Part shown: piece after piece, positions 6,922 to 25,863 of the stretch
How the letters are laid out: every line of letters begins with the position of its first letter
How positions within the stretch are numbered: position 1 is the first letter of the stretch
Assembly: GCA_016124255.1 (NCBI GenBank)
Contig: WGOB01000006.1
Coordinates: 1-64,000 of the forward strand
Length of the DNA stretch: 64,000 bases
Reading direction: 5' to 3'
Origin: Alphaproteobacteria bacterium
GTDB lineage: Bacteria; Pseudomonadota; Alphaproteobacteria; Caulobacterales; Aquidulcibacteraceae
Translations under genes and position numbers: made by a program
Notes under the pieces: model-generated
The model's database searches: none
What the model saw: only the letters and a program-made list of their open reading frames with translations
Told to the model about the DNA's origin: nothing

Positions 6922-9900
6922 CTATTCAGCCGGGGCGGCGGCGGGCGCGGCCGCATCGGCCTCGCCGTCCTTCGGGGCGAGCAGCAAGTACATCGCCGGG
7001 GTCACGATGCGGGCGACGAGGGTTGAGCTCACCAGGCCGCCGATGATCACGAGCGCGAGCGGCGAATAGAGCGGGGAATTCTCCAGCACCAGCGGCGTGA
7101 GGCCGCCGATGGCGGTGAGCGAGGTGAGCAGCACGGGCAGGAAGCGCACTTCCCCCGCCTTCTCGATCGCGTCCTTCAACGTGGCGCCGCGGGCGCGTTC
7201 CTGGTTGGCGAACTCGACCAGCAGGATGGAATTCTTGATCTCGATGCCGATCAGAGCGACGAAACCGATCACCGCGGTGAACGACAAGGACTGGCCGGCG
7301 AGAAAGAGCGCGATCAATCCGCCCATCACGCCGAACGGGATCACGAACGCCACGACGGCGCTGGCCGCGAAGGATTTGAACTCCAAGAGCAGCACCGCGA
7401 TGATGCCGAACATGGCGATCATGATCGCGGGACCAAGGCCGCCGAAGCTCTCCGATTGCGCTTCGGCCTGGCCGCCGAACTCGATGGCGTAGCCCGGCGG
7501 CAGGTCGATCGCGGCGAGGCGCCCGGCGACGTCGGCGGTGACGCGAGAGGTGAGGTAGCCGGGCTGCGTATACGCTTCCACGGTGACGGTGCGCTCGCGC
7601 TTATAGCGATCGATGCGCGCGGGCCCGGAGGTGAAGCGCGGATCGGCGACTTCCGACAAAGGCGCGGCCGCGCCGCTCTCGGTCCAAACGAAAAGGCGCT
7701 GAAGGGCCGATGCGGGCAAGGCGTCGTCGCGCGGGGCGCGCAGGACGATCGGGTACGCATCGCCGACAGGATCGCGGTAGCTGGCGACGGTCGCGCCGCC
7801 GACAGCGATGCGCAGCGCGTCGTCGACCGCGCCTGGGGGCACGCCGCGCAGGCTGGCGGCGGCGATGTCGATGTTCATGTCGAGATCGACGAGGCGCGCG
7901 GCAAGGGGATTGGAGACGTCGCGCGTGCCGGGCGTTTCCAGAACGATGCGCTCCACCGCGCCGGCGATTTCGCCGAGCGCTGCGAGATCGGCGCCGCGGA
8001 TGCGCACGGCGATCGGGGCTTCGATCGGGGGGCCGTTCTCGAAACGACGCACGGTGAATTTGGCGCCGGGGAAGACGTTCAATTCATCGCGAATGCGTTC
8101 GAGCAGCGCGTGGCCATCGCCAGCCTCCCAGTGTTCGAAGCGCGCGTAGATCTGGCCGATGTTGGAGCGCTGCTCCTCGGGAAAGAGGTTGTAATAGACC
8201 TGCGGATTGCCGCGGCCGGAATTGGCGAAACGCCAGCCGATCTCTTCGTGCGCGCCGAGGACGGCGTCGGCGTGGCGGACGGCCTTGTCGGTTTCGCTGA
8301 TCGCGGCGCCTTCGGGCAATTCCACGTCGACCATGAAATACGGGCTGTCGTTCTCCGGGAAGAGCGAGAAGCCGAGGCGCGGGATGAGGCCGAGCGAGGC
8401 GATGCTCACGGCGAGGCCGACGATGACGGTGAGCAGCGGCCGCTGCAACGCCACGTGCAGCGCCGGGCGATAGAATGTGTGGATGGCGCCCATCACGGCG
8501 TCGAGCACGGCGTTGGATTTACCCGCGGCGCTCTTGGGCAGCATGCGGCTGGCGAGGAACGGGATGATGGTGAGCGAGACGACGAGGGAGGCGGTGATGG
8601 TGACGACGACGGCGACGGGAAGCGAGCGGATGAAATCGCCTGCCGCTTCCGGCAGCGCCATCAGCGGCACGAAGGCGAGAAGCAAGGTGGCGGTACAGCC
8701 GATGACGGCGATGTTGATCTCGCTCACGCCGGCGATGGCCGCATCGCGCGGGGGCAGGCCCTCGCGGAGGCGCCGCGAAATATTCTCCGTCACGACGATG
8801 GAATCGTCGACCAGGAGACCGAGCGCCAGCACGAAGCCGGCGATCGACAATTGGTTGAGCGAGTAGCCCAGCATGTTCAGTGCAAAGACGCCGATCGCCA
8901 GCGAGAGCGGGATCGACATCATCACCACGAGGGACGCGCGGAAGCCCAGCGGCAGAAGCGTGACCAGCACGAGCAGGATGGCGATGCAGAAATCGCGGCC
9001 GAGCGTGCTCAGCCGATGCGCCACGGTCTCGGCTTGATCGAAGCCGCGCTCGAGCGTGATGTTTTCGGGCAGGCGCTCGGCGAAATCGTCCACTTCGCCG
9101 CGGACGCCGCGGATGACGTCGAACACGGTTTCGCCGAGCTTGGCGCGGGCGGTGACGATGACGGCGCGCTGGCCGTTGTAGCGGGTGATGTGGGCGCGCT
9201 GGTCGTTGGCCCAGGCGACGTCGGACACATCGCCGACCGTGACAATGACGCCGTCGGCGACGCGCAGGACGACGCGGCGGATTTCTTCCAGGCTGTCGAA
9301 CCCGCCGGTGGCCTCGACATTGAGCCGGCGCCCCCCCGCCTCCACCGCGCCGATCGGCACATCGGCGCCTTCGCGGCGCAGCGCATCCGCGACCGCGGTG
9401 AGCGGCAGGCGGTAGGCGGCAAGGCGATCGATGTCGGCGCTCACGCGCACCTCGGTCGGGGGCGCGCCCCAGATCTCGGCCTGCTGGACGCCCGGGGCGC
9501 GCTCGATCGCATCGCGCAGGCCGCGGGCGTACGATTCCATCTGGCGGAACGAGGCGTCCTCGCTGACCAGCGCCATCTGCACGACATTGGCCTGCGCGGG
9601 ATTGCGGCGGTCGGCGCGCGCCAGCGTGACGCCGTCGGGCAGGTTGGGGCGGACGACGTTCAGTTCACGGACGACTTCATCGAATTTACGTTCTGGATCG
9701 ACGCCGTAGACGAACTCGATGCCGAGGCTGGTGACGCCGGCGCGGCTGGAGGAATTGATGGCGACGACGTCTTCGATGCCGTTCATCGCCTGTTCGAGCG
9801 GGATGGCGACAAGGCGCTCCATCTGTTCGGCGTCGGCGCCGGGCAGCACCACCACCACGCCGACGAACGGGAAGCGCGTGATCGGATCTTCGGATTTCGG

Positions 9901-9999
9901 AATGGCGACGATGGCGGCAGCGCCGAGCGCGATCAGCAGCCCGAACATGACGAGCGTGAATTGCCAGCGCTCGACGAAAAAGCGGGTGATCGCCTGCAT
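6922..9999 (-). CDS. RND-superfamily efflux transporter permease
   Basis: A 1025-residue inner-membrane proton antiporter of the AcrB/MexB type (full family length). It begins with a cytoplasmic stub and a first membrane helix (WQFTLVMFGLLIALGAAAIV). It shows the duplicated layout: transmembrane bundle, large periplasmic loop, bundle, loop. The proton-relay aspartates are present in TM4 (LVDDSIVV, Asp398-Asp399) and the relay lysine in TM10 (IEIKNSILLVEF). It starts 3 bp after the adaptor gene, so the two form an operon. No outer-membrane channel gene is in the window; a TolC-like protein must come from elsewhere. Substrate unknown; TetR control is likely. Confidence 0.95.
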   Translation of the reverse strand: MQAITRFFVERWQFTLVMFGLLIALGAAAIVAIPKSEDPITRFPFVGVVVVLPGADAEQMERLVAIPLEQAMNGIEDVVAINSSSRAGVTSLGIEFVYGVDPERKFDEVVRELNVVRPNLPDGVTLARADRRNPAQANVVQMALVSEDASFRQMESYARGLRDAIERAPGVQQAEIWGAPPTEVRVSADIDRLAAYRLPLTAVADALRREGADVPIGAVEAGGRRLNVEATGGFDSLEEIRRVVLRVADGVIVTVGDVSDVAWANDQRAHITRYNGQRAVIVTARAKLGETVFDVIRGVRGEVDDFAERLPENITLERGFDQAETVAHRLSTLGRDFCIAILLVLVTLLPLGFRASLVVMMSIPLSLAIGVFALNMLGYSLNQLSIAGFVLALGLLVDDSIVVTENISRRLREGLPPRDAAIAGVSEINIAVIGCTATLLLAFVPLMALPEAAGDFIRSLPVAVVVTITASLVVSLTIIPFLASRMLPKSAAGKSNAVLDAVMGAIHTFYRPALHVALQRPLLTVIVGLAVSIASLGLIPRLGFSLFPENDSPYFMVDVELPEGAAISETDKAVRHADAVLGAHEEIGWRFANSGRGNPQVYYNLFPEEQRSNIGQIYARFEHWEAGDGHALLERIRDELNVFPGAKFTVRRFENGPPIEAPIAVRIRGADLAALGEIAGAVERIVLETPGTRDVSNPLAARLVDLDMNIDIAAASLRGVPPGAVDDALRIAVGGATVASYRDPVGDAYPIVLRAPRDDALPASALQRLFVWTESGAAAPLSEVADPRFTSGPARIDRYKRERTVTVEAYTQPGYLTSRVTADVAGRLAAIDLPPGYAIEFGGQAEAQSESFGGLGPAIMIAMFGIIAVLLLEFKSFAASAVVAFVIPFGVMGGLIALFLAGQSLSFTAVIGFVALIGIEIKNSILLVEFANQERARGATLKDAIEKAGEVRFLPVLLTSLTAIGGLTPLVLENSPLYSPLALVIIGGLVSSTLVARIVTPAMYLLLAPKDGEADAAAPAAAPAE

Positions 10000-16302: not shown

Positions 16303-16388
16303 AGTTACGGGAAAATTCATCCCCAATCGGGGAAACGCGCACTTGCGTGCCCCGAGGCTTTCCTATAGCAACGCCTCAGGAGCAAATC

Positions 16389-16541
16389 TTGCGAACCAAG
16401 GGCCATATTTCCGGACGATCTTGCGCCGCCCGCCTCGGCGGGCACGGCCGCGCGTCCGGGTCGGCCGTCCGGGTTCCGCCTCTCCTTCTAAGCGTAGTCC
16501 TTATTATCCGCCCCGAAGCGGCGCAGTCGCTCGCGACCTGA
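16389..16541 (+). CDS. Branched-chain amino acid leader peptide (attenuator peptide)
   Basis: A 50-codon frame starting at TTG 16389, with a strong ribosome site AGGAG at 16378-16382 six bases upstream. It ends at TGA 16539-16541. Codons 32-40 (16482-16508) read LLLSVVLII, eight branched-chain residues in nine. They use CTC, CTT, CTA, GTA, GTC, CTT, ATT and ATC, several of them unusual in this GC-rich DNA. A perfect hairpin follows 24 bp after the stop and ilvD begins 78 bp after it. This is the classic layout of ilv/leu attenuation: ribosome stalling at the Leu/Val/Ile run when charged tRNA is scarce. The peptide itself has no other expected role. Possible promoter elements lie at 16343-16369. 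Confidence 0.85.
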   Translation: MRTKGHISGRSCAARLGGHGRASGSAVRVPPLLLSVVLIIRPEAAQSLAT

Positions 16542-16565
16542 CACCCCTAGCAGGTTCGCACGCAC

Positions 16566-16593
16566 CGCCCCGCTTCCCTCCGGAAGCGGGGCG
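16566..16593 (+). terminator. Attenuator hairpin upstream of ilvD
   Basis: CGCCCCGCTTCC at 16566-16577 and GGAAGCGGGGCG at 16582-16593 form a perfect 12-bp stem with a CTCC loop, followed by CTTGTT. A competing pairing is visible: GAAGCGG at 16515-16521 is exactly complementary to CCGCTTC at 16570-16576 in the left arm. Another alternative hairpin can form from GCGACCTG and CAGGTTCGC nearby (16532-16560). The uridine tract is short, so termination efficiency is uncertain. Confidence 0.8.
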
Positions 16594-16619
16594 CTTGTTA
16601 CGCGCATCCCGGATCCCCG

Positions 16620-18344
16620 ATGACCGACCCCTCCTCCCCCTCCTCCTCAGCGCCGGACCAGCGCCGCAGCGCCGTGGTGACGCGCGGGCCGAACCGGGCC
16701 GCGGCGCGCGCCTATCTGCGCGCGGCGGGGATGGGGGATGCGGATTTCGCGCGGGCGCCGATGATCGCAGTGGCGAACACCTGGTCCTCAGTGACGCCGT
16801 GCAACATGCATCTGGGCGATCTGGCGGAGCACGTGCGGCGCGGCGTGCGCGAAGCCGGCGGCTTCCCGATCGACTTCAACACCATCGTGGTGACGGACGG
16901 CATCTCGATGGGGACGCCGGGGATGAAGGCGTCGCTGATCTCGCGGGAGGTGATCGCGGACTCAATCGAGCTGGCGGTGGAGGGCCACCAACTCGACGGC
17001 GTGATCTGCATCGTCGGCTGCGACAAGACGATCCCGGCCGCCGCCATGGCGCTGGCGCGGATGAACCTGCCGGGGCTCGTGCTCTATGGCGGAACGATCA
17101 TGGCCGGGCATTGGCGCGGCAAAGACGTTTCGATCCAGGACGTGTTCGAGGCGATCGGCGCGCATGGCGCAGGCACGCTGTCCGATGACGAGCTGAAGGC
17201 GGTGGAGAGCGCGGCGTGCCCAGGCGCAGGCGCCTGCGGGGGGCAGTTCACGGCCAACACGATGGCGATGGCGCTCACGATGATGGGGCTCTCGCCGATG
17301 GGCGCGAACGACGTCCCCGCGGTGCATCCAAGCAAGGCGGACGAGGCGGAGCGCTGCGGGCGGCTGGTGGTGGAGCTGGTGCAGCGCGGCGTGCGGGCGC
17401 GCGATCTGATCACGCGCGCCTCGCTGATGAACGCGGCGGTCGCGGCGTCTGCGAGCGGGGGCTCGACCAATGCGGTGCTGCACCTCACCGCGATCGCGGC
17501 GGAGGCCGGCGCGGATTTTGGGATCGAGGACTGCCATGCGGCGTGCGCGGCGGCGCCGGTGATCTGCGATCTGAAGCCCGGCGGGCGTTTCCTGGCGCAT
17601 GATCTCTATTCAGCCGGCGGCACGCGGCTGATGGCGAAGCGGCTGATGGATTCCGGCAAGATAACGGATGCGCCTACGGTGTCTGGGCGTCCGCTGTTCG
17701 CGGAGGCGCGCGAGGCGATCGAGACGAAGGGCCAGGAGGTCGTGCGCGACTTCTCCTCCCCGGTGATCTCGCGCGGCTCCTACGCGGTGATCTATGGCGG
17801 CGTCGCACCCGAAGGCGCGGTGATCAAGCTGGCGGGCCACGAGATCGAGCGGTTCGAAGGGCCTGCGCGCGTGTTCGACAGCGAGGAAGCCGCATTCGAT
17901 GCGGTGCAAGACGGGCGGATCAACGAAGGCGACGTGATCGTCATCCGCTATGAAGGCCCCAAGGGCGGCCCGGGCATGCGGGAGATGCTGCAGGTGACGG
18001 CGGCGCTGAAGGGCCGCGGCGTGCAGGACGTGGCGCTGATCACGGACGGGCGGTTCTCCGGCGCCTCCTACGGGTTCGTCGTCGGGCACGTGACGCCGGA
18101 GGCGGCGGTCGGCGGGCCGATCGCGCTCCTGGCCGACGGCGACATGATCCGCATCGACGTCCGTGCACGGACGATCGACACCGACGCCGACCTTTCCAAG
18201 CGCCGCGCAAGCCCGCCTGCGCGGGAGACGCCTACAGGCACATTCGCCAAATACGCCGCGCTCGTCTCCTCCGCGTCGGACGGCGCGGTGACGATCCCGA
18301 AATTCAAGACCAGCAAACCGATCCCAGTTCGCGAGGCCTCGTGA
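16620..18344 (+). CDS. ilvD: Dihydroxy-acid dehydratase
   Basis: A 574-residue iron-sulfur dehydratase of the IlvD/Edd family. It converts 2,3-dihydroxy-isovalerate and -3-methylvalerate into the 2-oxo acids for valine and isoleucine. Cluster-binding cysteines are visible in [17 protein letters not shown] and [16 protein letters not shown]; the C-terminal [13 protein letters not shown] signature is also present. Length is normal. It is the first gene of the operon, directly behind the leader peptide and attenuator. The stop overlaps the start of ilvC. Confidence 0.97.
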
Positions 18345-19345
18345 TGAAAGTGTACACCAACGACGACGTGACCGGCGACGCGCTGAAGGGCGCACGGATC
18401 GCGATCATCGGCTATGGCAGTCAGGGGCGCGCGCACGCGCAAAACCTGCGCGATTCAGGCTTCGACGTGGTGGCGGGCGTGCGCGAAGGCGGGCGCGGCT
18501 GGAAGCACGCGAGCGACGACAAGATCGCCACCGCAGAACCCGCCGACGCCGTCCATGGCGCGGACCTCGTGGCGATGCTGGCGCCGGACATGACGCACGA
18601 AGGCATCTACGCCGAGGTGGTCGCGCCGCATCTCAAGAAAGGCGCGACGCTGATGTTCGCGCATGGCTTCTCGATCCATTACGGGCGGGTGAAGCCGCGG
18701 ACGGACATGGACGTGATCCTGGTCGCGCCCAAGGGCCCCGGCGATCTGGTGCGGCGCGAATATGCACGCGGGCGCGGCGTGCCGGCGCTGTTCGCCGTGG
18801 CGCAGGACGCGACCGGCAATGCGCGCGAGCGCGCGATGGGATACGCCAAAGGCATCGGCGGCGCCACCGGCGGGCTGATCGAGACGACGTTTGCGGAAGA
18901 GACCGAGACGGATTTGTTCGGCGAGCAGGCGGTGCTGTGCGGCGGGGCCAAGGAATTGGTGATGGCCGGCTATCAGACGCTGGTGGACGCAGGGTACCAG
19001 CCGGAGGTCGCGTATTTCGAGTGCATGCACGAACTGAAGCTGATCGTGGACCTGTTCTACGAGGGCGGGATCTCGAAGATGCACGATTTCATCTCGGAAA
19101 CGGCGAAGTACGGCGCGGTGGTTTCAGGGCCGCGCGTGATCACAGAAGAGACCCGGGCGCGCATGCGCGAAGTGCTGAAGGACATCCAATCCGGAAACTT
19201 CGCCCGCGACTGGATTCTCGAGAACCAGGCCGGCAAGCCGCGCTATTCATCGCTGCTCAACGCGGACCGGACGCACCCGATCGAACAGACGGGCGCGCAG
19301 CTGCGGGAGCGGATGGCGTGGCTCAAGTCACCGACCAATTCCTAA
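18344..19345 (+). CDS. ilvC: Ketol-acid reductoisomerase
   Basis: A 333-residue class I (short) enzyme that isomerises and reduces acetolactate with NADPH. The dinucleotide motif GYGSQG is at residues 23-28. The knotted C-terminal domain carries the metal-binding [14 protein letters not shown] segment and the [12 protein letters not shown] helix. The ATG at 18344 shares its first base with the ilvD stop; an in-frame GTG at 18341 is the alternative. Second gene of the branched-chain operon. Confidence 0.97.
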
Positions 19346-19402
19346 ACGTAAACGAAAAAGTACACTTCCGAACCCTACACTCCTCCGAGCCGGAACGCCG
19401 AC

Positions 19403-21103
19403 ATGAACGCCGTTGTGCCCATCATTCGAGACGACCTCGACGCCGCCGCCCCGATGACGGGCGCGCGGCTTGTCGTGCGCAGCCTCGAACAGCTCGGCGT
19501 AGACTACGTGTTCGGCTATCCGGGCGGGGCGATCATGCCCGTCTATGACGCGCTGCCGGGCTCTTCGCTGAAGCACATCCTGGTGCGTCACGAACAAGGG
19601 GCTGCGTTCGCGGCGGACGCCTATGCGCGCGTCACCGGCAAGCCCGGCGTGTGCATGGCGACGAGCGGACCTGGGGCCACCAACCTCGTCACAGGGATCG
19701 CCAACGCGGCGATGGATTCAGTGCCGATGGTGTGCATCACCGGCAATGTCGCCACGACGCTGATGGGCACGGACGCGTTCCAGGAAGTGGACATCCTGGG
19801 CGTGACGCTGCCGATCGTGAAGCATTCCTGGGTGGTGCGCGATCCCGCGGAGATTCCGGCGATCTTCGAGGAGGCGTTTCATCTCGCGGCCTCGGGGCGG
19901 CCGGGCCCGGTGCTGATCGACCTGCCGAAGGACGTGCAGGTGGCGGCGGCCGAGGCGGCGCCGATCCGGATGCGACGCGACCCGAAAGCGCGGCTGGATG
20001 TGACGGCGATCCGGCGCGCAGCACAGATGATCCGCGAAGCGCAGCGGCCGCTGATCTATGTCGGCGGCGGGGTGCGGATCGCGAACGCGATCGCGGAATT
20101 CCGGACGTTCACCGAGCGCACCGGCATTCCCGTGGTCAGCACGCTGCAGGGGCTGGGCGCCTGCGCGCCCGACTGCCCCGGCTTTCTCGGCATGATGGGC
20201 ATGCACGGCTCGCGCGCCGCGAACGAAGCGGTGCAGGCGAGCGATCTGCTCATCGTGCTGGGCGCGCGCTTCGACGACCGCGCGACCGGCAAGCTGGTCG
20301 AATTCGCGCCGCATGCGCGGGTGATCCACGCCGACATCGATCCGGCGGAAATCTCGAAGCTGCGGCACGCGCACGCGTCGATCGCCGGCGATCTGAAGGC
20401 GATCATCCCGGCGCTCGATCCGGGGACGCTGGCGATCGATCCGTGGATGATCCGCTGCACGACGCACGCGATGCGGCATCGCTTCCACTATGAGGATGCG
20501 CCGGGCAAGGGCGTGTTCGCCCCTGCGCTGCTGCGCGCGCTTTCCGAGGCGGCGGGAGATGCGTTCGTCGCAGCGTGCGACGTGGGGCAGCACCAGATGT
20601 GGGCCGCGCAGCATTGCCGCTTCGCCGCGCCGCACGCGCACCTGACCAGCGGGGGCCTGGGCGCAATGGGCTACGGCCTGCCCGCGGGCATGGGCGCAAA
20701 GCTCGCGCGGCCGGACGCGCATGTCGTCACCATCTCCGGCGACGGCTCCTTCATGATGAACATCCAGGAGCTCGCGACGCTCAAGCGCTATAACATCGCG
20801 CTGAAAATCCTGCTGCTGGACAATTCCTCGCTCGGCCTCGTGCGACAGTGGCAGGAGCTCTTCTTCGAGCAGAATTACAGCGAGATCGATCTTTCCGACA
20901 ATCCGGACTTCGTCGCGGTAGCGCAGGCGTTCGGGATCGAGGCGTTCCGAATTAGCCGGCGCGAGGAGGTATCCGCCGGGATCACGCGGCTGCTTGCCGC
21001 GCCCGGCCCCTGCCTCGCGCACGTGCTGATCAACCCGAAGGAAAACGTCTGGCCGCTGGTGCCGCCGGGCAAAAGCAATTCAGACATGATTGAAGGAGCG
21101 TAA
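19403..21103 (+). CDS. ilvB: Acetolactate synthase large (catalytic) subunit
   Basis: A 566-residue thiamine-diphosphate enzyme making acetolactate or acetohydroxybutyrate. The catalytic Glu64 lies in VRHEQGAAFA; the ThDP motif starts GDG at residues 446-448 and ends at LLDNSSLGLVRQW. The RFDDR segment typical of the acetohydroxyacid synthases is present, which separates it from other ThDP enzymes. It is 57 bp after ilvC and 1 bp before the small-subunit gene. Confidence 0.96.
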   Translation: MNAVVPIIRDDLDAAAPMTGARLVVRSLEQLGVDYVFGYPGGAIMPVYDALPGSSLKHILVRHEQGAAFAADAYARVTGKPGVCMATSGPGATNLVTGIANAAMDSVPMVCITGNVATTLMGTDAFQEVDILGVTLPIVKHSWVVRDPAEIPAIFEEAFHLAASGRPGPVLIDLPKDVQVAAAEAAPIRMRRDPKARLDVTAIRRAAQMIREAQRPLIYVGGGVRIANAIAEFRTFTERTGIPVVSTLQGLGACAPDCPGFLGMMGMHGSRAANEAVQASDLLIVLGARFDDRATGKLVEFAPHARVIHADIDPAEISKLRHAHASIAGDLKAIIPALDPGTLAIDPWMIRCTTHAMRHRFHYEDAPGKGVFAPALLRALSEAAGDAFVAACDVGQHQMWAAQHCRFAAPHAHLTSGGLGAMGYGLPAGMGAKLARPDAHVVTISGDGSFMMNIQELATLKRYNIALKILLLDNSSLGLVRQWQELFFEQNYSEIDLSDNPDFVAVAQAFGIEAFRISRREEVSAGITRLLAAPGPCLAHVLINPKENVWPLVPPGKSNSDMIEGA

Positions 21104-21104
21104 G

Positions 21105-21398
21105 GTGACCGACACGATCCAGATCCTGATCGACCGCGCAGACGGATCGCTGCAGCGGCTGATCGGCCTCATCGAGCGGCGCGGCTTCCAGATCGACCGC
21201 ATGACCATCGCCGATGCAGGCGCGCATCGCGACGTGCGCGTGAGCGTTTCGCCGCGCGATCCGACGCGCTGCATGGACGTGCTCGGGCGCCAGATCGACC
21301 GGCTCGTCGGCGTGCGGCGCATCCATGCGGCGGCTGCGCAGATGAGCGCGCCCGCGGCGCCGCGCGTCGAGACGGAGGCGGTATCATGCACGGCGTAG
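21105..21398 (+). CDS. ilvN: Acetolactate synthase small (regulatory) subunit, short form
   Basis: A 97-residue protein starting at GTG 21105 with AAGGAG six bases upstream and only 1 bp after ilvB. The first 70 residues are an ACT domain (IQILIDRADGSLQRLIGLIERRGFQIDRMTI), the valine-binding and subunit-activating module. The second domain found in the roughly 160-residue IlvH form is absent, so it resembles IlvN/IlvM of enterobacteria. Its end overlaps leuA by 13 bp. Short subunits may respond weakly or not at all to valine; that cannot be judged from sequence. Confidence 0.88.
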   Translation: MTDTIQILIDRADGSLQRLIGLIERRGFQIDRMTIADAGAHRDVRVSVSPRDPTRCMDVLGRQIDRLVGVRRIHAAAAQMSAPAAPRVETEAVSCTA

Positions 21399-22606
21399 AC
21401 GCGAAAAAGGATCCCAACCGCGTCGTGATCTTCGATACGACGCTGCGGGACGGCGAACAGGCGCCGGGCTTTTCGATGGGCGCGGCGGCGAAGCTGGAGA
21501 TGGCGCGGGCGCTGACCGCGCTTGGCGTCGATGTGATCGAAGCGGGGTTTGCGGCCGCCTCCCCCGGCGACGAGGAGGCGGTGCGGATCGTATCGGGCGA
21601 AGTGGAAGGGCCGGTGTTCTGCTCGCTCTCGCGCGCAACCGAAAGCGACATCCTGGCCGCGCATCGCGCGCTCAGCCACAACCGGGCGCGGCGCATCCAC
21701 ATCTTCCTCGGCACCAGCCCGATCCACCGCAAAGCCAAGTTCAACATGACGGCGGACGAGGTGCTGGCGCAGGCGGTGCGCGCGGTGGCGTTTGCGCGCA
21801 CCCTGTTCGACGACATCGAGTTCTCCGCGGAAGACGCGATCCGCACCGAGCGCGCATTCCTGGGCGATGTGATGGAGGCGACGGCGGAAGCGGGCGCGAC
21901 GACGCTCAATGTGCCGGACACGGTCGGGTACTCGACGCCGGCGGAGATCAGCGATCTCTTCCGGTATCTGCACGGCCGCATCGCGCCGCGCTTTCCGGAC
22001 GCAGTGCTGTCTGCGCATTGCCACGACGATCTCGGCATGGCGGTGGCGAACACGCTGTCGGCGATCCAGGGCGGCGCACGGCAGGTCGAGGTCGCGGTCA
22101 ACGGCATCGGCGAGCGCGCGGGCAATTGCGCGCTGGAGGAAGTCGTGATGGCGCTGCGGACGCGCGCGGACCAGTTCGGGGTGACGACGGGCGTGGACAC
22201 GACCAAGCTCGTCGGCGTCAGCCGGCTCTTGAGCCGTCTCACGGATTCTCCGATCGTGCGGAACAAGGCGATCGTCGGCATCAATGCGTTCGCGCACGAG
22301 GCCGGCATCCATCAGCATGGCGTGATCGCGGACGCGCGGACCTATGAGATCATGCTGCCGCAGGACGTGGGCTTCGACGGCACGTCGTTCGTGCTCGGCA
22401 AGCATTCGGGGCGCCACGCCGTGGCCAAGCGCGCGGCCGTGCTTGGCCATGAGATCAGCGAGAACCTGATGGGCGCGGTGTTCGCCGGGTTCAAGCGGCG
22501 GGCCGACGAGATCGGCGAGATCAGCGATTCCGAGCTCGTGGCGATTATCGAGGCGGCGTATGCGGAGAACGAGCCGCCGCCGCAGCGGTATGCAGCCGCG
22601 AACTGA
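21386..22606 (+). CDS. leuA: 2-isopropylmalate synthase, short form without regulatory domain
   Basis: A 406-residue DRE-TIM metallolyase joining acetyl-CoA and 2-oxoisovalerate, the first step of leucine synthesis. The DRE signature is IFDTTLRDGEQAPG (Asp17, Arg21, Asp22) and the metal site is H211-C-H213. The linker ending in HEAGIHQHG and LGKHSGRHAV is complete. The usual LeuA is about 510-520 residues because of a C-terminal leucine-binding domain; here the protein stops after the linker, with no sign of a frameshift behind it. It may therefore escape leucine feedback. Citramalate or homocitrate synthase is less likely given the leuCDB genes downstream. Confidence 0.88.
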   Translation: MHGVDAKKDPNRVVIFDTTLRDGEQAPGFSMGAAAKLEMARALTALGVDVIEAGFAAASPGDEEAVRIVSGEVEGPVFCSLSRATESDILAAHRALSHNRARRIHIFLGTSPIHRKAKFNMTADEVLAQAVRAVAFARTLFDDIEFSAEDAIRTERAFLGDVMEATAEAGATTLNVPDTVGYSTPAEISDLFRYLHGRIAPRFPDAVLSAHCHDDLGMAVANTLSAIQGGARQVEVAVNGIGERAGNCALEEVVMALRTRADQFGVTTGVDTTKLVGVSRLLSRLTDSPIVRNKAIVGINAFAHEAGIHQHGVIADARTYEIMLPQDVGFDGTSFVLGKHSGRHAVAKRAAVLGHEISENLMGAVFAGFKRRADEIGEISDSELVAIIEAAYAENEPPPQRYAAAN

Positions 22607-22797: not shown

Positions 22798-24243
22798 GTG
22801 AGCGACGTGACTCAATCGAATTCCCCGCGGACCTTGTTCGACAAGGTGTGGGACGCGCATGTGGCGACGCCGGAAAGCGAGGCTTCGCCGGCGGTGCTCT
22901 ATATCGATCTCCACCTCGTGCACGAGGTCACGAGCCCGCAGGCGTTCAGCGAGATCGCCGCGCGCGGCCTGAAGGTTCGCCGGCCTGACCGGACCTACGC
23001 GACGCTCGATCACTCGACGCCGACGCTGCCGCCGAACGCGCAGGGCGAGCGTCCCTACGTATCCGCCGCGGCGAAGGCGCAGGTGGCGACGCTGGAAGAG
23101 AATTGCGCGACGCACGGCATCCGTCTCGCGGGATGGGAGAGCGCCGATCGCGGCGTCGTGCATGTGATGGCGCCGGAACTGGGGCTGACGCAGCCAGGCA
23201 TGACCGTCGTGTGCGGCGACAGCCATACCGCGACGCACGGCGCGTTCGGCGCGCTGGCGTTCGGGATCGGCACGTCGGAAGTCGCGCATGTGCTGGCGAC
23301 GCAGTGCCTGCTGCAGCGCAAGCCGAAGACGATGCGCGTCACCGTGGACGGCGCTTTGCAGGCGGGCGTGTCGGGCAAGGATGTCGCGCTCGCAGCGGTC
23401 GCGGCGCTCGGGTTCGGCGGCGGCACGGGACACGTGATCGAGTACGCCGGCGCGGCGATCCGCGGACTGGACATGGAGGGGCGGATGACGCTCTGCAACA
23501 TGTCGATCGAAGCGGGCGCGCGCGCGGGAATGATCGCACCGGACGAGAAGACGATTGCGTGGCTCAAAGGGCGGCGGCATGCGCCGCAGGGGGCCGCGTT
23601 CGAAGCGGCGGCGGACGCGTGGCTCGCGCTCGCGAGCGATCCCGGGGCGCGCTACGACAAGGAAGTGCGGATCGACGGCGCCGCGATCGCGCCGATGGCG
23701 ACATACGGGACCACGCCCGACACCGGCATCGCGATCGGCGCGCGCGTGCCGCAGGCGCGCTCGACCTCGGACGAGCGGGCGCTCGCCTATATGGGCTTCG
23801 CAGCGGGCGAAGCGACGACGAACGAGCCGGTGGACGTCGTCTTCATCGGAAGCTGCACCAACGGGCGGCTCGGCGATTTGCGCGCGGCGGCGGAGATTCT
23901 CCGTGGACGGACGATTGCGCCGCGCGTGCGCATGGTGGTGGCGCCGGGCTCGGAGAGCGTGCGGCGCTTGGCCGAGGCCGAGGGGCTGGACGCGGTTTTC
24001 CGCGAGGCGGGCGCGGAATGGCGGCTCTCGGGCTGCTCGATGTGCCTCGCCATGAACGGCGATTTCGTCGCGCCGGGGCAATTGGCGGTGTCGACGTCCA
24101 ACCGCAATTTCGAGGGACGGCAAGGCAAGGGCGCGCGGACGATCCTGGCGAGCCCCGCAACGGCTGCAGCGTCGGCGATCCGCGGCCTGCTTACCGATCC
24201 GCGCGAGTTCATGGATGCGACCAAGGAGGCGGCGCATGCCTGA
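22798..24243 (+). CDS. leuC: 3-isopropylmalate dehydratase large subunit
   Basis: A 481-residue aconitase-family enzyme. Cluster cysteines are present in [14 protein letters not shown] and [11 protein letters not shown]; the substrate-binding [15 protein letters not shown] and the C-terminal [14 protein letters not shown] segments are intact. Together with LeuD it isomerises 2- to 3-isopropylmalate. The start is GTG 22798 or, perhaps better served by GAGAGGTGAG, the in-frame GTG 22807. The REP-like palindrome separates it from leuA, so leuCDB may be expressed at a different level from the upstream genes. It overlaps leuD by 8 bp. Confidence 0.95.
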
Positions 24244-24820
24244 GAAATTCACGACGCTGACGTCCAAGACGCTCGTGCTCACGCAGGAGAACATCGACAC
24301 CGACCAGATCATCCCGGCGCGTTTCCTGACGACGACGCGCCGCGACGGGCTCGGCAAGCACGCGTTTCACGATTGGCGCTATGACGCCGACGGCGGCGAG
24401 ACGAACTCGATCCTCAACGAGATCGACCCCAGCGCGCGCCGCATCCTGGTGGCCGGCCACAATTTCGGGTGCGGTTCCTCGCGCGAACACGCCCCGTGGG
24501 CGCTGATGGATTATGGCTTCCGCGTGGTGATTTCCACCGACATCGCCGACATCTTCACCTCCAACGCGCTGAAGAACGGGCTGTTGCCGATCGTCGTCGA
24601 CGGGGAGACTCACGCCGATCTGGTCGCGCACGAAGGCCAGGACGTGACGATCGATCTCGAGCAATGCGAAATCCGGCGCGGCAATCGGGCGCCCGCGACG
24701 TTCACGATCGAGCCGTTCGCGCGGCAATGCCTGATGGAGGGCGTCGACACGCTCGGCTGGCTGGCGGGCAAGGCCGCCGACATCGCAGCGTTCGAACGCG
24801 CGCGCGGCGAAGCTGCATGA
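24236..24820 (+). CDS. leuD: 3-isopropylmalate dehydratase small subunit
   Basis: A 194-residue swivel-domain subunit of the isopropylmalate isomerase. [13 protein letters not shown] near the N-terminus and [17 protein letters not shown] near residue 75 are diagnostic. The ATG at 24236 has AAGGAGG upstream (24221-24227) and lies inside the end of leuC; the stop overlaps leuB in ATGA. Length is normal for the bacterial LeuD1 type. Confidence 0.96.
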
Positions 24821-25863
24821 GCGCGTTTCGGATCGTGATGCTGCCTGGCGACGGTGTCGGGCCCGAGGTCATCGCGGTTGCGCGCGCCGTTCTGGAGCGC
24901 ACCGGGGCGCGGTTCGGCCATGCGTTCTCGTTTGACGAGCAGCTGATCGGAGGCGCGGCGATCGATGCGACCGGCGAGGCGCTGCCGGCGAAAACGCTCG
25001 ATGCGTGCCGCGGCGCGGACGCGGTGCTGCTCGGCGCCGTCGGGGGGCCGCGGTGGGACAAAGGCGCGGTGCGCCCGGAACAAGGGCTGCTCGGCATCCG
25101 CAAGGCGCTCGGGCTCTACGCCAATGTACGTCCGCTGATTCTGCAGCCGGCGTTGATCGCGCAATCGCCGCTCAAGCGCGAGATCGTCGAGGGCGTGGAC
25201 CTCATCGTCTTCCGCGAACTGACGGGCGGATCGTATTTCGGGGAAAAGCGCCAGAGCGCCACGGAGGCGAGCGATCTCTGCATCTACACGGTCGGCGAGA
25301 TCGAGCGGATCGCACGCGCGGCGTTCACAGCGGCGCGGGCGCGCCGGAAGAAGGTGACGAGCGTCGACAAGGCCAACGTCATGGCGACCAGCCGGCTGTG
25401 GCGCGAGACCGTAACGCGCATCGGCGAGACCGAGTTCGCAGACGTCGCGCTGGAGCACGTGCTGATCGACGCGATGACGATGCATGTGCTGCGGCAGCCG
25501 CGCAGCTACGACGTGATCGTGACTGAGAACATGTTCGGCGACATCCTGACGGACGAGCTGTCGGCCATCGGCGGGTCGCTGGGGCTTGCGCCGTCGGCGT
25601 CGCTCGGCGCGGGGAAGCCGGGGCTGTTTGAACCCGTGCACGGCTCGGCGCCGGACATTGCGGGCCAGGACTTGGCTAATCCGATCGGGATGACGCTGTC
25701 GGCGGCGATGATGCTGCGGCATGGGCTGATGCTGGAGGCGGAAGCGGAGGCGGTGGAGAACGCCGTCGCCGACGCGCTCGCCGCGGGTGCGCGGACGCGC
25801 GACATCGGCGGCGCCTTGGGCTGCCGGGCGATGGGGGACGCGATCCTCAGCGCGCTGGGCTGA
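24817..25863 (+). CDS. leuB: 3-isopropylmalate dehydrogenase
   Basis: A 348-residue NAD-dependent beta-decarboxylating dehydrogenase completing the leucine-specific steps. Family features: MLPGDGVGPEV at the start, LGAVGGPRWD, the substrate-binding RELTGGSYFG, the metal-binding DVIVTENMFGDILTDE and the NAD-binding HGSAPDIAGQ. The start at ATG 24817 overlaps leuD. mobA follows 9 bp after the stop. Confidence 0.97.
   Translation: MSAFRIVMLPGDGVGPEVIAVARAVLERTGARFGHAFSFDEQLIGGAAIDATGEALPAKTLDACRGADAVLLGAVGGPRWDKGAVRPEQGLLGIRKALGLYANVRPLILQPALIAQSPLKREIVEGVDLIVFRELTGGSYFGEKRQSATEASDLCIYTVGEIERIARAAFTAARARRKKVTSVDKANVMATSRLWRETVTRIGETEFADVALEHVLIDAMTMHVLRQPRSYDVIVTENMFGDILTDELSAIGGSLGLAPSASLGAGKPGLFEPVHGSAPDIAGQDLANPIGMTLSAAMMLRHGLMLEAEAEAVENAVADALAAGARTRDIGGALGCRAMGDAILSALG

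Follow-up and report, generated by a model that had tools for sequence, protein, structure and literature searches.

The region ahead of ilvD in the window (the whole 64,000-nucleotide stretch of DNA analysed here) very probably contains a ribosome-mediated transcription attenuator of the ilvD-ilvC-ilvG-ilvM-leuA operon, as judged from sequence comparison and RNA folding models. An earlier note on this DNA had proposed an ilv/leu attenuator, and that reading is supported: across the order, ilvD loci again show the control-codon run, a terminator and the antiterminator segment. The parts of the switch, their conservation and covariation, and the mutually exclusive folds are all seen in the sequences described below. 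The locus has the features of amino acid attenuators, namely a short leader ORF with a ribosome-binding site (AGGAG and TTG), clustered codons for the amino acids under regulation (LLLSVVLII), an intrinsic terminator between leader and first gene, a predicted antiterminator pairing exclusive with that terminator, and downstream genes (ilvD, ilvC, ilvG, ilvM and leuA) that produce the amino acids encoded by the control codons.

The first gene of the proposed controlled operon is ilvD (dihydroxy-acid dehydratase, 16620–18344, NCBIfam NF002068 above cut-off). It is followed by ilvC (ketol-acid reductoisomerase, 18341–19345, NCBIfam), the catalytic subunit of an ilvG-type acetolactate synthase 2 (19403–21103, NCBIfam NF006524 above cut-off), an ilvM-like acetolactate synthase small subunit with an ACT domain (21105–21398, assigned by sequence analysis), and leuA (2-isopropylmalate synthase, 21386–22606, from the ORF list and NCBIfam), which overlaps ilvM. 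These genes share the plus strand and either overlap or are separated by at most about 60 bases. Both leuC (22798–24243) and leuB (within 24469–25863) lie downstream of leuA, beyond a gap of about 190 bp; they may form a separate transcription unit. The operon makes isoleucine, valine and leucine, which fits joint sensing of Leu, Val and Ile by the leader. No recognisable Shine-Dalgarno site precedes the ilvD start codon (ATG 16620) within 16600–16620. The ilvD and ilvG genes of the window (16620–21103) show 74–82% identity to those of a different genus in the family; the genomes searched from the window's own genus carry other types, at about 45–49% identity. Judging by these sequences, the operon may have undergone exchange or patchy loss.

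The leader ORF and its control codons

The leader ORF (16389–16541, plus strand; MRTKGHISGRSCAARLGGHGRASGSAVRVPPLLLSVVLIIRPEAAQSLAT) starts with TTG at 16389–16391, has 50 sense codons and ends with TGA at 16539–16541. Its Shine-Dalgarno site, AGGAG (16378–16382), sits six nucleotides upstream of the TTG, and a similar site precedes GTG or TTG in relatives. This start, its AGGAG site and the 50-residue peptide had been read from the letters in the earlier note and are borne out. The TTG assignment is supported by comparison with the 16 closest loci, which have GTG or TTG starts, mostly with a Shine-Dalgarno site. A sigma-70 scan for a promoter returned zero matches.

Codons 32–40 of the leader (16482–16508) read CTC CTT CTA AGC GTA GTC CTT ATT ATC and encode LLLSVVLII, a run conserved in relatives. 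The claim that this run is written in unusual codons holds when set against six genes of the window, where CTA and CTT account for 1.0% and 8.6% of Leu codons, GTA for 1.6% of Val codons and ATT for 4.8% of Ile codons. Under the same six-gene usage, a codon choice as rare as that of the control codons has P = 1.5e-5. In a six-frame reading of the 64-kb window, stretches with at least eight Leu, Ile or Val in nine residues occur in only two places, the leader and a long minus-strand ORF (6922–9999), and 3 of 20,000 shuffles of the leader yield such a stretch. The leader peptide combines a basic N-terminal half with the hydrophobic run.

The terminator and the competing antiterminator

An intrinsic terminator (16566–16599, plus strand), recognised by sequence, shuffles and folding, lies between the leader stop codon and ilvD. 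Its stem (CGCCCCGCTTCC-CTCC-GGAAGCGGGGCG, 16566–16593) is the perfect 12-bp hairpin that the earlier note had placed here, with all positions paired and a folding energy of -25.7 kcal/mol, and it exceeds the stems of relatives in both length and stability. The tail that follows, CTTGTT (16594–16599), is a weak U-tract with four U in six; nearly all relatives have a stronger T-run, and a terminator scan requiring five T in eight bases did not report the window's terminator. The longer stem may offset the weak tail, or the switch may be leaky.

The segment GAAGCGG (16515–16521, plus strand), previously picked out as complementary to the left arm of this hairpin, does pair with CCGCTTC (16570–16576) within that arm, with p = 0.0025 against dinucleotide shuffles. 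It forms the 5' arm of an antiterminator hairpin that spans 16515–16576 in the predicted fold and encloses an inner hairpin (GCGACCTG / CAGGTTCGC, 16533–16559), found by folding and alignment, that holds the leader stop codon. Folding for competing structures thus predicts mutually exclusive antiterminator and terminator conformations, all on the plus strand. The full terminator, with its right arm present, is the more stable of the two, so the choice between them must be kinetic, as in known attenuators. A further pairing around the terminator, GGAUCGC/GCGGUCC, was dropped for the window, where only 4 of its 7 pairs are present. Relatives share this outer pairing and a GGUCCG...CGGACC hairpin before ilvD, and both are largely broken in the window (16553–16612).

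Conservation of the switch in related genomes

Loci from relatives were fetched with the ilvD protein from 60 related genomes. Among the loci of the closest ilvD type in the order, 17 of 18 (window counted) have a leader with at least seven Leu, Ile or Val in ten residues, which answers whether the Leu/Val/Ile run is conserved ahead of ilvD. The run-bearing ORFs end about 60–130 bases ahead of the start of the ilvD match, and a terminator follows in all 17. Only L010 departs from this pattern, with a weaker form in which a shorter Leu run precedes a GGGAGCGGG segment and a terminator. The same layout appears in a second, named collection that includes Brevundimonas (L033, L034 and L036–L039), Hyphomonadaceae (L032, a further run-bearing leader read by eye), Maricaulis (L041) and others. 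In the 16 closest loci, which comprise the window's family and Caulobacteraceae, the leader has 45–54 codons and all 16 are assigned a GTG or TTG start, never ATG; a Shine-Dalgarno site precedes most of these starts. The leader is exactly 50 codons long in 6 of the 7 loci L033–L039, and L003 and L004 carry a near-identical AGGAGCAAAAAATTGCG where the window has AGGAGCAAATCTTGCG. Outside the run the peptide is poorly conserved, while its length, the run and the RNA complementarity persist across relatives.

At the 49 loci that have both a run and a terminator, the segment between the two was tested for pairing with the terminator left arm, using 400 dinucleotide shuffles as the control. Complementarity reaches p < 0.05 in 35 of the 49, with a Fisher combined p of 4e-35 that is overstated by the non-independence of related loci. 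The two arms change together: most relatives have GGAGCGG/CCGCTCC and the window has GAAGCGG/CCGCTTC, a compensatory change from a G-C to an A-U pair, with further paired changes in L047 (GGTAGCGGG/CCCGCTACC) and L104 (GGCGCGGGG/CCCCGCGCC). The 16 closest loci vary little; 93.7% of their cells are paired, against 42–62% for slid versions, and covariation among them exceeds that of shuffles only moderately (58 of 500 reach the antiterminator score and 75 of 500 the terminator score).

With the ribosome taken to sit in the run, the RNA between the control codons and the terminator loop folds in all 16 closest loci into a long hairpin (-27 to -38 kcal/mol), which consumes the terminator left arm and has its inner part at the leader stop codon. 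With a ribosome modelled on the stop codon (a mask of 18 bases upstream and 12 downstream), -5 to -14 kcal/mol is left. In 13 of the 16, the antiterminator is also predicted to form when the leader is not translated (at least 4.6 expected pairs), a difference from leaders that have a protector hairpin; no obvious protector hairpin is seen here. RNAalifold on the full alignment recovered the terminator and the inner hairpin, together with a competing pairing, GCGG/UCGC, and missed the full antiterminator; on a 3'-trimmed alignment the terminator arm was shifted. Per-sequence folding was used in its place for the antiterminator.

When the 16 closest loci were built into a covariance model, the element turned up in 77 of the 299 genomes searched from the order, most strongly in two genera; the window is matched at 16506–16628 (E 1.6e-16). 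The model did not find the attenuator in the three remaining genomes of the window's genus that were searched, where ilvD, if found, is of a different type. Most other model hits with a recognised run likewise start with GTG or TTG; a few have ATG additionally or instead. Ahead of acetolactate synthase genes in related genomes, one weak candidate (L125) was found among 29 loci.

Leaders of similar layout also occur before other genes and in other groups. The ilvD attenuator model matches an attenuator-like leader, TTTTTII, before a fused aspartokinase-homoserine dehydrogenase gene (L180:2-1663, minus strand). At loci L173, L174, L175 and L176 the layout recurs with control codons for Met, Thr and Ile (e.g. 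TTMIIMT), and two small ORFs (about 115 and 90 codons) that have no Pfam match follow. In one family of the order, L181 and L182 carry the same leader type (e.g. LVLVLVLII) before ilvC, not ilvD. Branched-chain leader ORFs with terminators also stand before ilvD in the Candidatus Obscuribacter group (L050, L053), in Geothrix (L064, L069) and in Deltaproteobacteria, Myxococcales (L058, L084). Complementary segments are present in most of these six loci, and ATT recurs in their runs, GC-rich genomes included. For cyanobacteria, PMC4833913 states that reliable data on attenuation were lacking.

Proposed mechanism, alternatives and significance

From this arrangement we infer a promoter, leader translation, ribosome stalling, termination and a response to amino acids. 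A ribosome would initiate the leader at TTG 16389. If charged Leu-, Val- or Ile-tRNA were scarce, it would stall within 16482–16508, and the RNA at 16515–16576 would fold as the antiterminator, occupying the terminator left arm and letting transcription proceed into ilvD. If amino acids were plentiful, the ribosome would arrive at the stop codon (16539–16541). Because the stop codon sits within the inner hairpin, a ribosome there would block the antiterminator, and the terminator (16566–16593) would form.

The folding models also suggest a variant of classical attenuation that we regard as possible but less likely than not, in which read-through would be the default and termination would require a ribosome to reach the leader stop codon. 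Read-through without translation would follow from the predicted formation of the antiterminator by the untranslated leader in most loci. This variant would combine the lack of a protector hairpin, a stop codon within the antiterminator and a conserved weak GTG or TTG start that sets basal read-through. If it were true, blocked leader translation would turn the operon on rather than super-attenuating it.

The window's own copy could instead be a remnant, a leader that arrived with the operon and whose switch has since decayed, leaving ilvD read through constitutively. The CTTGTT tail in place of a T-run, the two further pairings of relatives broken here, and the three other genomes of the genus, which lack the attenuator and in which ilvD, where found, is another type, would all be in keeping with such decay. 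The terminator stem of 12 perfect pairs is nevertheless longer and more stable than those of relatives, the antiterminator is intact and includes a compensatory change, and the control codons, Shine-Dalgarno site and length are preserved, which makes decay improbable.

Two other explanations are considerably less probable still. A functional small membrane protein, with the hairpin serving either to terminate the gene upstream in the ordinary way or as a spacer, would account for the basic N-terminal half joined to a hydrophobic run and for the mild purifying selection seen on the N-terminal part in close pairs. The run of 9–10 residues is short for a membrane span, however, and consists of amino acids produced by the next genes; what persists among relatives is length, run and RNA complementarity rather than the sequence outside the run, and a protein has no need of the antiterminator complementarity. 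We give this explanation very little weight, and marginally less to a ligand-sensing riboswitch or protein-bound leader in which translation of the ORF would be irrelevant. The conserved RNA does extend beyond a minimal attenuator, to the inner hairpin and the outer GGAUCGC/GCGGUCC pairing of relatives, but no Rfam family fits, and what is conserved as a unit is an ORF whose run is made of the regulated amino acids and whose start is linked to a Shine-Dalgarno site. The search of Rfam at gathering score gave 0 matches in the window, and up to E 10 returned chance-level matches only.

Read as an attenuator, the element resembles several described systems. The ilvBN attenuator of Caulobacter crescentus has tandem Ile and Val codons and a Rho-independent terminator (Tarleton, Malakooti and Ely 1994, as cited in PMC4117421). 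Caulobacter belongs to the same broad group as the window's organism, and in both a leader with branched-chain codons controls, or here would control, a terminator before biosynthesis genes. The Caulobacter leader precedes ilvBN, whereas that of the window lies upstream of ilvD and precedes ilvD-ilvC-ilvG-ilvM-leuA. The classical amino acid attenuators of proteobacteria were surveyed by Vitreschak et al. 2004 (as cited in PMC1262725). They share with the window codons for the regulated amino acids in the leader and mutually exclusive antiterminator and terminator. The window's family differs from them in having about 50 codons, a GTG or TTG start and no obvious protector hairpin; the attenuator leaders of E. 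coli are shorter and start with ATG. The ilvB-II motif of Corynebacterium and the ilvB-OMG motif also place a branched-chain-rich upstream ORF before an ilv gene, with proposed transcription attenuation, in other taxa, before another gene (ilvB) and with a different RNA (PMC10272879). A literature search with partial coverage of the relevant papers found nothing on this ilvD leader. The principle of attenuation is classical, and its conserved version with a non-ATG start ahead of ilvD appears to be uncatalogued.

The attenuator family described here is well delimited and absent from Rfam. About one in four genomes sampled from the order have it, and it is predicted to govern a combined ilv-leu operon. 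With their conserved non-ATG start and length of about 50 codons, such leaders are easily overlooked. The covariance model also matches leaders that share this layout, have different control codons and stand before other amino acid genes, and one leader architecture may have been reused with different codons.
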